From positions 1 to 32,296 of the forward strand of contig JAFGBX010000441.1 in NCBI GenBank assembly GCA_016932935.1: a stretch of 32,296 nt of DNA, written 5' to 3'. Under the pieces are notes generated by a model. That model had not been told where the DNA came from. It ran no database searches and saw only the letters and a program-made list of their open reading frames with translations. This document shows, piece after piece, positions 25,606-32,296 of this stretch. Numbering within the stretch: the stretch's first letter is position 1; each line of letters starts with the position of its first letter. The translations under genes were made by a program, and so were the position numbers. Origin of the DNA: Promethearchaeota archaeon (GTDB lineage Archaea; Asgardarchaeota; Lokiarchaeia; Sigyniarchaeales; Sigyniarchaeaceae).

Positions 25606-27189
25606 TCACGTGCCGTCGGCTTGGACCGGCGCCCCCTCCTTCTTCTTCGGGGGCGGTGGCGGCGGCAACTTCAAGAAGTAGGCGGGGTGGTAGCCCTTCT
25701 CCTCCACGCGTTTTGCTTCGGTTTTCTCGTAACTTCGTTTCTTGGCGAAGGAGAGTTTCTTCACGAGGGGGAGCCCTGGCTGGACCTCATCGATTGGTCT
25801 TTTCTCGATCAAGCCCGATTGCACCGCCGCGTCGAACAGCTCCTTCCCCGCACTTGTGCGAATGATGACCGTGTTCCAGCCGTCCGGGGATCCGATCGAA
25901 CCGACGGATACGTCTGCCAGCTCGGAGGTCAGGTCGTGGCAGCAATGGCAGCTGAGCCGGGCGAGTTTGGTCACGTCCTTCATGCTTGCCGACTTCGGCT
26001 CCCCGCTCGTGGGGTACGCGAAGAACTGCCCCTCCTTGATGTTCATCTTCCTCACCTGGTCGAGCGGGGTCTCGAACGTGCCCTCGCACAGCTGCTTGAT
26101 GCCGGCGTGGGTGAAGGACTCCATGCAGAAGATGCCGATGCGGTACTTGATGTTGCCGACGTCGACAGTCCCCGACGGATAGACCTCGGCCTTGCGGAGG
26201 GCTTGCATCATGCACGGGGTGCCGACGACGGCGATAGCCCTTTCCCGCTTCACGATCCTCAGCAGCCTCATGCTGGGCGTGTTCACGTACTTCGTCCCCG
26301 CGGCCCGAACGACGTCGGGAACGCCCTTCATGACGATGGCCTCGGGCTTCCACGGGACACCGCCCGCCCTCGCCGCGCCGATCGCGGCCTGGATCGCCTT
26401 CGACTCGAACGCGTGGATGAGCAAGGCCGATGACACCCCGCCGTCTTGCACGAGCGGCCGCAAGTCCTCCCGGGTGATCCTGGCACACCATGCCTCGGTG
26501 ATCACGCCCGTCTTGAGGTCTTCGGGGGTGGCCGGCTTGTCCATCATCGCCCACTCCATGGCCTTTCTCGGGAGCAGCGCCCGCGGGCACGCGGTGAGGC
26601 ACAGGCCGCAGCGGATGCACCTGTCCATGTCTATCGTGACCTTGCCGTCGTCCACCGAGATGCAATCGACGGGGCACACGGCCTGGCACGCGCCGCAACC
26701 GCTGCATGCCTTGCCTTCGTCGACCACCTTCACTGGCACGTAGACGGGCTGGATCTTGCTGGAATCTTCGGTGACAAAAGTGAACGAAACTGCATCCGGC
26801 CCGTCGAGATCGCACCGGACAAATCCCTCGAAGGCGAGTTGGAACGCGGCAGCGACGGCGGCCTTGCCAGGGATGCCGAGCGACTGCCCTTTCTGGGCCA
26901 AACCCTCGAGGTTCACGCCGCAGCCAGCGGCCTCTATCTCGCGCAATATCGCCGCTTTGCGCACTTCCTCGTCGAGCAAGGTTCCGAGCATGTCGTCGTA
27001 CTCGTTGCCATCGAGAGCGCCTGCTTTCTCTATGTCCGCCTTCGCGTCGACGAGGCAGCGGATTCGGAACGATCTCGCCGCGTGCAGCAACAACGGAAGC
27101 TGCCTCACGTGCTCGGGGTGCATCTCCTCCGCGACCATTTCGGTGGCCATCCACTTCATGGATCCGTTATCTGTCCTGGTTCTTATCAT
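25606..27189 (-). CDS. FrhB/FdhB-like flavoprotein with two [4Fe-4S] clusters
   Basis: 527 residues from the ATG at 27189; an in-frame ATG at 27159 is possible. An N-terminal region of about 150 residues is unassigned. A two-cluster ferredoxin follows, with Cys162, 165, 168, 172 and Cys191, 194, 197, 201. The FrhB-type domain from about 225 onward includes WCARITREDLRPLVQDGGVS, VVGTPCMMQALRKAE, the metal motif CHCCHDLTSELADVSVGSIG, and WNTVIIRT. FrhB-family proteins use FAD to pass electrons between iron-sulfur partners and F420 or other acceptors. The tail is six prolines and a charged end. It lies 85 bp after mvhD and is probably the electron-exchange partner of HdrA/MvhD. The acceptor is not determined. 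Confidence 0.88.
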   Translation of the reverse strand: MIRTRTDNGSMKWMATEMVAEEMHPEHVRQLPLLLHAARSFRIRCLVDAKADIEKAGALDGNEYDDMLGTLLDEEVRKAAILREIEAAGCGVNLEGLAQKGQSLGIPGKAAVAAAFQLAFEGFVRCDLDGPDAVSFTFVTEDSSKIQPVYVPVKVVDEGKACSGCGACQAVCPVDCISVDDGKVTIDMDRCIRCGLCLTACPRALLPRKAMEWAMMDKPATPEDLKTGVITEAWCARITREDLRPLVQDGGVSSALLIHAFESKAIQAAIGAARAGGVPWKPEAIVMKGVPDVVRAAGTKYVNTPSMRLLRIVKRERAIAVVGTPCMMQALRKAEVYPSGTVDVGNIKYRIGIFCMESFTHAGIKQLCEGTFETPLDQVRKMNIKEGQFFAYPTSGEPKSASMKDVTKLARLSCHCCHDLTSELADVSVGSIGSPDGWNTVIIRTSAGKELFDAAVQSGLIEKRPIDEVQPGLPLVKKLSFAKKRSYEKTEAKRVEEKGYHPAYFLKLPPPPPPKKKEGAPVQADGT

Positions 27190-27191
27190 CC

Positions 27192-27208
27192 CATCGCTCG
27201 CAGCGATG
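27192..27208 (-). repeat. Hairpin just before the frhB-like start
   Basis: CATCGC-TGCGA-GCGATG on the minus strand: a 6-bp stem with a 5-nt loop. It ends 3 bp before the ATG at 27189 and could affect translation initiation or form part of the SECIS region. Confidence 0.45.
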
Positions 27209-27210
27209 CG

Positions 27211-27252
27211 CCATCATTACCCCGTCGGCTTTGGTCAGGGTAAATCACGCGG
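27211..27252 (-). promoter_or_regulatory. Candidate SECIS element in the mvhD 3' untranslated region
   Basis: Downstream of the mvhD stop (27275-27277), on the minus strand, UGAU (27244-27247) and UGAU (27213-27216) flank a hairpin (27217-27243). The stem pairs UUACCC with GGGUAA, then U.G and G-C, an A.A mismatch and C-G. The apical loop of seven is CAAAGCC. The two UGAU segments face each other as U.U, G.A, A.G, U.U, the arrangement of the eukaryotic SECIS quartet. Below it a G.G mismatch and three G-C pairs continue. The location fits archaeal and eukaryotic SECIS elements, which sit in 3' UTRs. The fold was done by hand. Confidence 0.6.
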
Positions 27253-27274
27253 CTGGGGGATCGGGTGTGTCTCG

Positions 27275-27724
27275 TCATATCACGACATTCAAGCCCCGCG
27301 CCTTGTCCATTTTCAAGGGATTGGGGGGCAGGGCCTTTATCTTTGCCACGAACTCGTTGGTTGCCCGCATGAACCGGTCGATCTCCGCCGCCGACATGAA
27401 GAAGATGCCCACGCGATCGGGGTCGAAGCCAGACCGCTGGAGCATGAACTTCACCGCGTTGACGTGCCGCTCCGCGACGAGGTTTCCCGTCTCGAAGTCG
27501 CATTCCCCCTTGTGGCACGCGTAGATACCGACGCCATCGGCGCCGTCTCGCAATGCCTGGAGGATGTCCGAAACGTCAACGCGCCCCGTGCATTTCACCC
27601 TCACGAGGTATATCACGGGTTCGTACTGGTTCCTCGAAACGCCGACCAGATCCCCTGCGGAATAGCCTCACTTCTCGCAGCAGTATATAATTACTTTCCT
27701 GGGTTCTTGTTTGCTTCCTTCCAT
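27275..27724 (-). CDS. mvhD: Selenocysteine-containing MvhD/VhuD-type hydrogenase iron-sulfur subunit
   Basis: 149 residues from the ATG at 27724; ATGs at 27742 and 27745 are alternatives. Codon 19 (27668-27670) is an in-frame UGA. Reading through it gives YCCEKUGYSAGDLVGVSRNQ, which aligns with the MvhD motif F-C-C-x-W-C-S-Y-A-G-A-D-L-A-G, so the UGA stands for the second cysteine of a C-x-x-C pair. After it come the family features RVKCTGRVDVSDILQAL, ADGVGIYACHKGECDFETGN and GIFFMSAAEIDRF. MvhD links HdrA electronically to a hydrogenase or similar partner. Without read-through, only a 113-residue fragment missing its cluster-binding N-terminus would be called. The stop codon is itself UGA. 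Confidence 0.88.
27668..27670 (-). other. In-frame UGA read as selenocysteine in MvhD (codon 19)
   Basis: It replaces the conserved second Cys of C-x-x-C. Flanking coding sequence on both sides matches the family without any frameshift. Confidence 0.85.
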
Positions 27725-27765
27725 AGATCTCTCACGTTCCATCATTGATGATTAAACACGCGCCC

Positions 27766-27803: not shown

Positions 27804-29870
27804 CTACGATTTGCAGCCGGGCTGCATCGGTGCGGGCGCGTCGGTGGATTCTGGTGTGTCTTTGGGAGTCCGTGCCATGCTTGCTTCCCCGCCCTGCTTG
27901 ATTATGGCGCAGACCTTGCCCGCGAGCTGGCCGTCGCGGTAGTACCGGAGCTCGATGGCCCTCGCGGGACAAGAGGATATGCAGATGCCGCAACCCTTGC
28001 AGTTGAGGTCGTTGACCTCCGCGACGTTGCTCTCGGGGTTCACCTGTATCGCGTTGTAGTTGCAAGACTTCTCGCAGCGGTGGCACGCGATGCATCGGCC
28101 TGGATCGACGATGGCAGTGACGAGCTCCTTGGCATAGATGCCGGCGGTGACGATGTTCGCAGCGGCCGCGGCAGCACCGAGCGCAGACGAGACCGAGTAA
28201 GGAACGTTCTTCGGCCCGGCGGCACAACCCGCGATGAAGATGCCTGGGTTCTTGGTCTCCTGCGGGCTCAAGCACTGGTGCGTCTCCTTGAGGAACCCTC
28301 CTGGGGACTTGTCCAGGCCTAGCACCGCTGCGATCTCGTTCGTACCAACGGACGGGATCATTCCGGCCGAGAGCACGAGCAAGTCTACCGAGACCTCTTG
28401 CACGGTGCCATCGAGCGTGTTCTCGAACGTCAACATGATGTTGCCGGTCGCGGGATCCTCCTTGATGTCGCCCGGGATGCCTCGCACGAACAAGACGCCC
28501 TTCTCGCGGATGCGACGGTAGTATTCCTCGTTGTGCTTGTCCCAGCACCGCATGTCCATGTAGAAGATCATGACCTCGACCCCGTCGATCTCCTGCTTGA
28601 GCAGCTGGGCGTTCTTCAAGGCGAGGTTGCAGCACACCGCCGAGCAGTACGCGTTGGCATTCTCGTGCATGCTGCGGGAGCCGACGCACTGGACCATGGC
28701 AACACGCCGCGGGATCTTCTTGTCCGATATGCGGAGCACGTGCCCGTGGGTGGCGCCGACGGGCGAGAGCATGCGTTCGAGTTCCATCTGGGTGATCACG
28801 TTCTGGAACCGGCCATAGCCGTAGGAACCGTGTTGCAGCACGGGATACTCGTCCCAGCCGGTTGCCACGATGATCGCCCCCGCGATGACGGTCTCGAGCG
28901 TCTCCTTGTCGTCGTAGTTGATCGCGCCCCGCTGGCATGTCTTCGCACATAGGCCGCAGCTCATGCACGCCTCCTTGTCGATCAAGGCGACCTTCGGAAC
29001 GGCCTGGGAGAACGGGATGTAGATCGCCTTCCGCATGCCGATACCCCGGTTGAACCCGTCGGGAACCTCGATGGGGCACTTGGCAATGCAAGCGCCGCAG
29101 CCCGTGCAGAGTTTCGGATCCACGTAGCGGGGTTTTTGCTTGATCGTGACCGCGTAGTTGCCCGTGATGCCTGAGACCGCCGAGACCTCGGCGTTCGTGA
29201 AGAGCTTGATGTTGGGGTGCTTCGCGGCCTTGACCATGATCGGCGCGACGACTCAGATGGCGCAGTCGTCCGTCGGGAAGACGCGGTCGAGCTGGGCCAT
29301 GCGGCCTCCGATGGTCGGCTCCTTCTCCACGAGGTAGACCATGATCCCCTGGTTCGCCAGGTTGATCGCCGCGTTCATCCCCGAGATGCCAGCCCCAACC
29401 ACGAGCACGGATTTGGTCACATCTACTTCCTTGCGTGGCACGTCCTCCAGGGACATCGCGCGGTAGACTCCACCCGCGACAAGCGCCTTTGCCTTTTCAG
29501 TCGCCCGTTCCTTGTCCTTGCTGTGGACGAACGAGCAGTGCTCTCGCAAGTTGACCATTTCGAAGTAGTACGGCGAGAGCCCGGCGTCCACGAGCAGCTC
29601 CCGGTAGGTGGGCTCGTGGATCTTTGGCGTGCAGGCGGCCACGACCACGCGGTTCACTCCGAGTTCCTGGATGTCCCGCTTGATGATCTGCTGGCCGGGG
29701 TCGGAGCAAAAGAAAGTGAAGGTGCGCGCGACGAGCACGTTCGGCAAGATCTCCGAAAAAGCCCTCACTCCCTCGGCATCGACGAACTGGCCTATGTTTA
29801 CTCCTCATTGGCACACGTATACGCCGATGTTCACAGACTCCCTTGGTTTAATGGGTGTTGTATCACTCAT
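27804..29870 (-). CDS. hdrA: Heterodisulfide reductase subunit A-like protein with two selenocysteines
   Basis: 688 residues from the ATG at 29870 to a UAG at 27804, if two UGA codons (22 and 206) are read as Sec. Without this the gene appears as two ORFs plus an orphan leader. The start region reads VYVCQUGVNIGQFVD, where family members have C-H-C-G-x-N-I. CSDPGQ, AACTPKIHEP and LREHCSFVH follow, all typical. The FAD motif GAGISG is at 159-164 with TIGGRMAQLDRVFP. DDCAIUVVAPIM replaces the family D-C-A-x-C-I-L. Four iron-sulfur motifs follow: Cys255/258/261/265, then CMSCGLCAKTC, CIACHRCEKSC and CKGCGICISSC. HdrA is the bifurcating flavoprotein core of Hdr complexes. HdrB and HdrC are not in the window. 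Confidence 0.9.
29253..29255 (-). other. In-frame UGA read as selenocysteine in HdrA (codon 206)
   Basis: It stands at the second Cys position of the family segment D-C-x-x-C. HdrA homology continues without a frameshift directly on both sides (FPTDDCAI before, VVAPIMVKAAKHPN after). Confidence 0.87.
29805..29807 (-). other. In-frame UGA read as selenocysteine in HdrA (codon 22)
   Basis: It stands at the second Cys of the N-terminal C-x-C-G-x-N-I motif: VYVCQ before, GVNIGQFVD after. HdrA-like coding resumes in the same frame. Confidence 0.82.
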
Positions 29871-30478: not shown

Positions 30479-31435
30479 TTGCTCAGGCGCATCATCTCCC
30501 GATCGCAACATGGCGAGTCGATCTGCCTCGTCGACAAGGGCTTCAACGAGCTCCTCGACGTCCACGACGACAACTTCTCCGAGCTCTTCCATGTGCTCAG
30601 CGATATCGTCAAGGTAAGCATTGCGATCAACAGGGAGGACTTCATCCCCGAGGACCTGCTATCCGAGGCGGATATCTTCGTGATCGGGTGCCCGGCTAGG
30701 GCAAGACTCTCCGCCGACGACATCGAGACCATCGCAAAGTACGTCCGGGAGGGGGGAAACCTCCTCGTCATCACCGATGCGGGTGGCGACCTCGCCCACC
30801 AGACCAATCTGAACGACCTGGTGGCGGAATTCGGCATCGAGATCGAGTACACGACGGTTCGGGACACGCGAAACGTCGGATCCGCTGTGTCACCCGTGAT
30901 CGAGAACATCAACGTCAGCCACTCGGTAAACAAGAACGTGATGCGGCTGGTCGTCGGTGGTGGGACGACGCTCTCAGTCGTTTGGCCCGCAGTTCCCCTC
31001 TTCTCCACGGGCCGAAACAGCGTCGTCGAGCAGCTCGGCTTGTCGGCTAACGATAGTCACCCGTGGAAGATCGTGAAAGTGGGCGAGAATTACCCCATGG
31101 GCGCGGCAACGCTGCACGGGCAGGGCAAGGTTGTGGTGATCGGGGATGTCGACATGTTTTCAAACGATGGCGAATACGGCATCACCGCCTTGGACAACGG
31201 CACCTTCATCAAGAACGTCTTCGCATGGTTCCTGGCGCCCGTGGAAACCAGCACGGTCATCGACTGGTTGATCGCCAGGTTGTCGAACTTGGAGGAGAAA
31301 TATAACGCGGTATCGAAAAAGTGTGACAACATATCCGCTGAGAACGAGAAACTCAAAAAGATCTTGAAGGAAATGCACGCCACCCAAGGGAAGTATGCGG
31401 TCGTTGACAACGACACCTCCGAGGGCGCGGAGTGA
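30479..31435 (+). CDS. IFT52-like GIFT-domain protein with C-terminal coiled coil
   Basis: 318 residues from a TTG at 30479; no ATG or GTG is available in the early part of the frame. The segments ADIFVIGCPARARLSADDIE, YVREGGNLLVITDAGGD, NLNDLVAEFGIEIEY, GGTTLSVVWPAVPLFSTG and QGKVVVIGDVDMFSN occur in this order. They parallel human IFT52 (AGPREKF...LKKYLDTGG, GEGG, N-F-L-L-E-E-Y-G-I, GATLSVMKPAVAVLSTG, GGKLAVLGSCHMFSD). GIFT domains occur in IFT52 and in GldG-type proteins and bind protein or sugar-like ligands. The C-terminal 60 residues (LSNLEEKYNAVSKKCDNISA onward) form a coiled coil. No membrane segment is present, unlike GldG. Confidence 0.78.
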   Translation: MLRRIISRSQHGESICLVDKGFNELLDVHDDNFSELFHVLSDIVKVSIAINREDFIPEDLLSEADIFVIGCPARARLSADDIETIAKYVREGGNLLVITDAGGDLAHQTNLNDLVAEFGIEIEYTTVRDTRNVGSAVSPVIENINVSHSVNKNVMRLVVGGGTTLSVVWPAVPLFSTGRNSVVEQLGLSANDSHPWKIVKVGENYPMGAATLHGQGKVVVIGDVDMFSNDGEYGITALDNGTFIKNVFAWFLAPVETSTVIDWLIARLSNLEEKYNAVSKKCDNISAENEKLKKILKEMHATQGKYAVVDNDTSEGAE

Positions 31436-31513: not shown

Positions 31514-31654
31514 GATCAAGGGGGGATCTAGCTTCGTATACCATCTCACATCCGAGCATCCCTCGCTGCCCGTTTCGGTCGCATGGGGTGGATGCGGTTC
31601 CGCCGAACTTGGCGTGGGTAACAGAGTGTTCAACGAAATCAAAGAATGATAACA

Positions 31655-32296
31655 ATGTCCCGTGAATTGAAGCTCTTCGTCGAGACGAAAGAGAACGTCG
31701 GCGACGACATCTACATTTCTAGTATTTCCGCAGAATCGCTTGGAGTGCGTGATGGAGACCTCGTCCAGGTGAGCATTCCAGAGGAGGGGTTCAACACGTC
31801 GCTCGTCGTGCACATCAACGAGAGCTTGTTCGACTTTGTCGTTCAGATCGACGAGAACCTGCCGGAGATACTGGGGTTCAAGTCTATGGAGCTAACGGTC
31901 ACGCCAGCCTCCCCCGGCACCCTCCCCGCTAGGCCTTCCAAGCCCGGTGCAGGGCCGGGCAGGCCTGTACCGCCGCCACGGGCTCCCGGAATGGCACCAC
32001 CCGTGCCGAGCCCGCCTGGCATGGTGGGGCCCCCACCAGGCCCTGGAGTGCCAGCCGTGCCGAGGATGCCGTCAATGCCTGGCGTGCCCGCCGTTCCCAG
32101 CGTGCCGGCCATGCCGGGGCTGCCGGCCATCCCGAAACCACCCTCTGTGCCCGGGGTGCCCGCCGTGCCGGCGGTTCCAAAACCACCGGCGATCCCGAGG
32201 CCCCCGTCCATGGCACCAGCGGCGCCGGCGATCCCGAGACCCCCGTCCATGGCACCAGCGGCGCCGGCGATCCCGAGGCCCCCGTCCATGGCACCA
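31655..32296 (+). CDS. Proline-rich repeat protein with N-terminal beta-barrel-like domain (3' end outside window)
   Basis: 214 residues are visible and the frame is open at the right edge. Residues 1-80 form a strand-rich unit (LKLFVETKENVGDDIYISSI, GVRDGDLVQVSIPE, FKSMELTVTP). The G-V-R-x-G-D-x-V pattern is common in double-psi or AbrB-like barrels. From about residue 85 the sequence is Pro/Ala/Gly/Val-rich with P-A-V-P, P-A-I-P and R-P-P-S-M-A-P units, low complexity and probably disordered. The last part is a 13-residue tandem repeat. Poly-proline segments of this kind can bind profilin, SH3-like or GYF domains; a profilin link is speculation. No membrane segment or signal peptide is seen. 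Confidence 0.7.
   Translation, partial: MSRELKLFVETKENVGDDIYISSISAESLGVRDGDLVQVSIPEEGFNTSLVVHINESLFDFVVQIDENLPEILGFKSMELTVTPASPGTLPARPSKPGAGPGRPVPPPRAPGMAPPVPSPPGMVGPPPGPGVPAVPRMPSMPGVPAVPSVPAMPGLPAIPKPPSVPGVPAVPAVPKPPAIPRPPSMAPAAPAIPRPPSMAPAAPAIPRPPSMAP
32186..32296 (+). repeat. 39-bp tandem repeat coding PAIPRPPSMAPAA
   Basis: Copies start at 32186, 32225 and 32264; the third is cut by the window edge. They differ by one synonymous base (AGG/AGA). Near identity implies recent expansion or gene conversion. Imprecise older units precede them. Confidence 0.85.

Follow-up and report, generated by a model that had tools for sequence, protein, structure and literature searches.

A candidate three-way-junction SECIS element behind the hdrA–mvhD selenoprotein genes of a Sigynarchaeum-like Asgard archaeon

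How does an Asgard archaeon insert selenocysteine (Sec) at the in-frame UGA codons of its hdrA and mvhD genes, and what part is played by the RNA encoded in the short spacer behind mvhD? The window, i.e. the whole stretch of DNA analysed here (32,296 nt), is a complete contig (C121) of a Sigynarchaeum-like Asgard genome. On its minus strand, hdrA is followed by mvhD, an 85-nt spacer and an frhB/fdhB-like gene (Table 1), a gene order that suggests co-transcription of hdrA and mvhD. A preliminary description of the sequence had placed a SECIS-like stem-loop with a eukaryote-style core in this spacer. From comparative sequence analysis, we consider it highly likely that the spacer encodes one SECIS element folded as a three-way junction, which would direct Sec insertion at all three UGAs of hdrA and mvhD. 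The fold recurs behind UGA-carrying selD, mvhD and vhuU genes and is conserved across Asgard families.

The hdrA–mvhD operon and its selenocysteine codons

The operon contains three in-frame UGAs, all at cysteine sites, two in hdrA and one in mvhD; the preliminary description had spoken of two selenoproteins but missed the third UGA, hdrA having two. Among named relatives, Candidatus Sigynarchaeum springense (L048) has the most closely related operon, with an mvhD that is 89% identical. In this genome and in L049, TGA is present at all three Sec positions; in L050, the first hdrA site is occupied by Cys (CQCG) and the second by TGA, which is the usual Sec/Cys exchange. The mvhD orthologues of L048–L050 carry TGA at the same position, as do those across Asgard archaea. 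The stop codon of mvhD is itself a TGA (27277-27275), but this was rejected as an additional Sec codon, as L048 and L049 have UAG there. L050 lies on a contig labelled Bathyarchaeota (WJJB01000214.1); its MAG is probably misnamed, because its hdrA–mvhD–SECIS operon is Sigynarchaeal, with 70% identity and the same three-way junction.

Table 1. Coordinates of the genes, Sec codons and predicted RNA elements in the window
Feature	Position	Strand	Evidence or context
hdrA, 688 residues with two in-frame TGA as Sec	27804..29870	-	translation with TGA=U; FAD/NAD and Fer4 domains
hdrA U22 codon	29807-29805	-	context VCQUGVNIG
hdrA U206 codon	29255-29253	-	context DDCAIUVVAP
mvhD/frhD/vhuD	27275..27745	-	Pfam FlpD, 133.5 bits
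mvhD Sec U26 codon	27670-27668	-	context YCCEKUGYSAG
FrhB/FdhB-like gene, same operon, downstream	25606..27189	-	Pfam FrhB_FdhB_C, 135.8 bits
Whole putative SECIS element, junction P1/P2/P3	27188..27261	-	RNAalifold (alignment A2); covariation, 0/500 shuffles; model R1
P1 5′ strand AUCC, pairs with GGAU 27191-27188	27258..27261	-	AUCC/GGAU identical in four species
Kink-turn C-stem 5′ strand GCCG, pairs with UGGC 27213-27210	27250..27253	-	register test, family-specific compensation
3-nt kink-turn bulge CGU	27247..27249	-	sequence, register test
Core 5′ side: G, A of tandem G·A/A·G and U of U·U	27244..27246	-	UGA invariant in four species
P2 NC-stem UUACCCUG (27243-27236) / CGGGGUAA (27224-27217), apical loop 27235-27225	27217..27243	-	covariation, four species
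Core 3′ side: U, G, A	27214..27216	-	sequence comparison
Kink-turn C-stem 3′ strand UGGC	27210..27213	-	register test, family-specific compensation
P3 hairpin CAUCGC[UGCGA]GCGAUG, loop 27202-27198	27192..27208	-	compensatory change in L048–L050
P1 3′ strand GGAU	27188..27191	-	RNAalifold (alignment A2), covariation

The genome to which the window belongs encodes a tRNA-Sec (66 bits), a selD containing one in-frame TGA, a SepSecS fragment at a contig edge and two L7Ae-family genes. aSelB was not found in this MAG (82% complete); candidates are present in three sister genomes, and the one checked has archaeal SelB as its best match (PDB 4ac9, E 1e-88). An elongation-factor-like protein (L008, 1345-2415), closest to 3wnb and archaeal SelB, was rejected as SelB, since its GTP-binding G-domain motif is missing and its best match is the EF1A-like 3wnb; it is probably a SelB-like paralogue. 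Because FrhA of the genome under study has Cys, a SECIS is not expected there; selD of this genome is followed by an element of the same shape as that behind mvhD (UGAA GGGUCGA..AAA..UCGACCC GGAG). In several Asgard genomes (L151–L170), the hydrogenase large subunit is split, with the C-terminal Sec motif in a separate short ORF (CYDCULSCGAH) that resembles methanogen VhuU.

Two further genes of the window were noted in passing. Adjacent to the operon, a protein encoded at 30479-31435 (+) matches the IFT52 GIFT domain (69.1 bits; cut-off 27.2), which is familiar chiefly from intraflagellar transport. An ORF at 31646-32296 (+), interrupted by the contig end, contains a long proline-rich repeat (PSMAPAAPAIPRP) and found no match in a Pfam search.

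A kink-turn arm related to known SECIS elements

The stem-loop is confirmed at precisely the coordinates first given. On the minus strand, UGAU (27247-27244) lies opposite UGAU (27216-27213), and the helix has eight pairs (one of them U·G) followed by an A·A mismatch and one more C-G, which makes the original figure of about 10 positions a reasonable one. The AAA of the apical loop ACCAAAGCCGA is at 27232-27230. The location of the stem-loop in the 85-nt spacer stands, while the reported distance of 28 nt needs correcting: the mvhD stop and the first U of UGAU are 27 nt apart. Folding of the spacer alone (z = -1.9) is not decisive, because 10 of 200 shuffles fold equally well. What decides the matter is comparison: in the spacers of L048, L049 and L050, GUGAU...AAA...UGAU is kept and the helix is almost rewritten. 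The four-species spacer alignment contains eight pairs changed on both sides, a number reached by none of 500 column shuffles, and seven of the eight NC-stem pairs show two-sided changes. The stem-loop had been proposed with the proviso that its reality would hang on covariation and on a conserved structure in homologous operons, and L048–L050 provide both. In the wider element set, for which the GA/[G/A]A core was itself a search condition, 65 of 66 elements have AA early in the apical loop. Given the in-frame UGAs, the tRNA-Sec, the UGA-containing selD, the retained core and the helix covariation in relatives, we regard the hairpin as very probably a real, working Asgard SECIS.

The predicted core is a regular kink-turn, consisting of a 3-nt bulge, tandem G·A/A·G pairs and a C-stem on the bulge side. 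This follows from a register test on 66 elements, whose parser made no use of the C-stem pairing examined: a bulge of 3 nt allows the first C-stem pair in 98% of them and the first two pairs in 88%, compared to 11–58% and at most 24%, respectively, for other registers. The first C-stem pair is moreover gene-specific and compensated, being G-C in mvhD and C-G in selD. C/D-type kink-turns (the targets of L7Ae/15.5K) share the 3-nt bulge, the G·A/A·G and U·U pairs, the C-stem and the NC-stem. The element described here differs in its AAA loop cap and in being embedded in a junction, and protein binding is in this case only predicted.

Among 1,439 selenoprotein genes of Asgard archaea, 85% have been reported to possess eukaryote-like SECIS structures (eSECIS), which have apical adenines and a core of the form AUGA_GA or GUGA_GA; one such element is common to hdrA and frhD (=mvhD) (Huang 2024, PMC11227280). 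That work builds on Mariotti 2016 and Sun 2021 (PMC9723677), and a search for Asgard selenoproteins with SECISearch3 gave no significant results (PMC11227280). The published structures are defined by a 5′ GA / 3′ [G/A]A core, a helix of 7–15 bp with at most two mismatches, and a loop of 8–20 nt (PMC11227280). The stretch 27247-27213 has such a core, with a helix of 8 bp and a loop of 11 nt; it lies 3′ of a Sec-UGA gene as an element common to hdrA and frhD, and it is conserved and covaries in orthologous operons. It thus resembles the published Asgard structures in its UGA/GA core, helix length, apical-loop adenines, 3′ location and sharing between hdrA and frhD/mvhD. The earlier proposal of one SECIS-type, eukaryote-like element for both selenoproteins of the operon is borne out, but it is not new, because such sharing was published in Huang 2024 (PMC11227280); its connection with an archaeal origin for the SECIS of eukaryotes is likewise already known.

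With eukaryotic type I SECIS elements, the arm shares the (A/G)UGA...GA tandem sheared pairs, the U·U pair, the helix, the unpaired adenines and the position 3′ of the ORF. The eukaryotic quartet and apical AA(R) are represented by GUGAU/UGAU and AAA (AUGA is usual in eukaryotes, GUGA rare). It differs in its 8-bp helix, in GUGA rather than AUGA, in the C-stem beside the bulge and in the presence of a second hairpin, P3, which is conserved here, whereas the eukaryotic SECIS is a single hairpin. Methanogen SECIS elements are also archaeal, located in the 3′ region, built on a kink-turn-like motif and able to serve several UGAs with one element. However, their GAA_A bulge with three G/C pairs is absent here, where the 5′ side reads GAU followed by U-A, U-A and A-U. 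Describing the element as eukaryotic rather than methanogen in logic is too simple given the C-stem, P3 and the junction, and given that it is matched by no Rfam SECIS model.

Two stems around the arm: P1 and P3

The hairpin is, as judged by comparison of related sequences, one arm (P2) of a conserved three-way junction that is closed by P1 and carries P3 directly 3′ of the arm. These two conserved flanking stems are absent from the preliminary description. P1 is nearly invariant among the four nearest species and covaries in selD of another family (GAGACCG/CGGUCUC, GAGGCCG/CGGCCUC, GAAACUG/CAGUUUC). P3 reads CGUCGC[CGCGA]GCGACG in L048 and L049, GUCGC[CGCAA]GCGAC in L050 and CUGCCG[AGCGA]CGGCAG behind selD of the same genome. 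Equivalent hairpins are found across Asgard selD, mvhD and vhuU, the last being a small vhuU-like gene (YDCULSCGAH) with the junction at its 3′ side (e.g. CACCC[CGCAA]GGGUG in L170). Strict N-GNRA loops cap P3 in 21 of 32 selD and 5 of 28 mvhD elements, a GNRA is contained in 13 of the 28 mvhD loops, and the loop measures 6–7 nt in several lineages.

Without structure input, RNAalifold returned P1, P2 and P3 together in five of seven selD and mvhD alignments: A1 (selD family f28), A2 (Sigyn mvhD), A6 (mvhD family f20), A7 (Lokiarchaeal selD) and A8 (Sigyn selD). These alignments were trimmed to the P1-to-P1 stretch found by our descriptor (A2 and A6 keep some flank), which favours P1 in this count and leaves covariation independent. 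For Lokiarchaeal mvhD (A5), RNAalifold gave P2 and P3 without P1, because the P1 strands are misaligned; the descriptor does find P1 there. No fold was returned for the visibly misaligned mixed-family A4, and the mixed-family MAFFT alignments (A3, A4 and A9), being structurally wrong, were replaced by family-wise ones. In each of the four alignments scored for covariation, none of the 500 shuffles and none of the slid registers reached the observed value; in A1, A7 and A8, P1 and P3 themselves show two-sided changes.

The descriptor, which fixes the length of the P3 loop but none of its letters (score cut-off 38), recognized 60 of 77 selD/mvhD regions in its strict form, compared to 46 of 4,620 dinucleotide shuffles (1%) and 49 of 2,676 random genomic windows (1.8%). 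When P2 was fixed and the 3′ flank shuffled, P1 and P3 were found in 54 of 70 real and 1,502 of 14,000 shuffled sequences (11%), with 25 real and 14 shuffled N-GNRA loops. As relatives are not independent draws, these shuffle counts are not probabilities. In 20 elements below the cut-off, a hairpin after GA is still visible by eye, by reading only.

A covariance model (R1) trained solely on selD elements of family f28, i.e. another family, had its single best match in the 32-kb window at 27263-27186 (minus strand, full length, E 0.049). Of the Rfam SECIS models (gathering score or E ≤ 10), none matched the element. R1 also detects L048, L049 and L060; a search across the whole genome under study found nothing, and a model from four selD elements (R2) missed the mvhD, Loki selD and vhuU elements altogether. 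In ViennaRNA, where non-canonical G·A pairs are unscored, the window sequence alone favours an alternative fold by ~6 kcal/mol, and the proposed fold is largely obtained for L048 and L049.

The published account of the Asgard structures speaks of an upper stem, an internal loop and a lower stem and makes no mention of a second hairpin; here, the 'internal loop' contains the kink-turn C-stem and P3, and P1 closes the junction. Neither the regular kink-turn core nor P3 and the junction was found described in the text of the papers covered, and the junction with its P3 hairpin seems to have been overlooked as a structural feature. The SECIS could still be the published eukaryote-like hairpin alone, with P1 and P3 as incidental neighbours such as an mRNA-stability hairpin. 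The published model is indeed limited to core, upper stem and apical loop, and the P3 loop is variable among mvhD elements. We nevertheless consider this improbable: P3 adjoins the arm behind selD, mvhD and vhuU alike, although these genes are unrelated, with P1 surrounding both hairpins, P1 and P3 accompany P2 far more often than in shuffled flanks, and both covary.

The structure ends immediately before the start region of the frhB-like gene, and might thus control the initiation or coupling of that gene instead of recoding. This is very improbable, as the structure is also present behind selD and vhuU, in different gene contexts, and the core agrees with the published Asgard eSECIS. Furthermore, three of five Cys-only mvhD regions have no parse, and the remaining two score only 33 and 20. 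That the RNA is a C/D-box-type guide, or is targeted by L7Ae in some other role, and that nothing but its kink-turn is functional, is hardly credible: weak Rfam matches to sR14 (13.7 bits, E 0.12) and sR21 (E 9.6) point that way, but scores are far under gathering (38 for sR14), the NC-stem, AAA loop, P1 and P3, all of them conserved, do not belong to the C/D pattern, and the element is consistently located after selenoprotein genes.

How the junction may work, and what it would mean

In the three-way-junction SECIS that we favour, P1 would close the junction and P2 would form the kinked arm (C-stem, bulge, G·A/A·G, U·U, NC-stem and AAA loop), with P3 as the accompanying hairpin. The arm may be bound by an L7Ae-family kink-turn protein or another factor, which would then recruit aSelB with Sec-tRNA-Sec. 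P3 may stack on P1 while the kinked arm leaves the junction, a possibility raised because no spacer lies between P3 and P1 in most parses (45 of 66). From there, P3 would position the bent arm or hold it in place, either through a GNRA tertiary contact with a neighbouring helix or by binding aSelB, L7Ae or the ribosome.

SBP2 is reportedly missing from every Asgard genome (PMC11227280). More generally, archaea lack SBP2, and the archaeal SECIS binder is not known (PMC9499178). A lokiarchaeal SECIS was non-functional in M. maripaludis (PMC11881835). P3 may take the part that SBP2 plays in eukaryotes. Going further, we tentatively suggest, as possible rather than probable, that Asgard SECIS elements are obligate three-way junctions in which the N-GNRA-type loop of P3 is a recognition or docking module replacing SBP2, and that eukaryotes kept the arm and lost P3. 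If so, P3 would have been lost in eukaryotes when SBP2 appeared.

How the archaeal SECIS is linked to the UGA without SBP2 is an open question (PMC9499178, PMC11881835), for which P3 is a candidate for the missing contact, and the junction makes this question directly testable. P3 is also one possible reason for the failure in M. maripaludis, if P3 was omitted or the host lacks a reader. Finally, the junction would provide a better descriptor for detecting Asgard selenoprotein genes, as well as a structural character that may be traced through the archaea-to-eukaryote transition.
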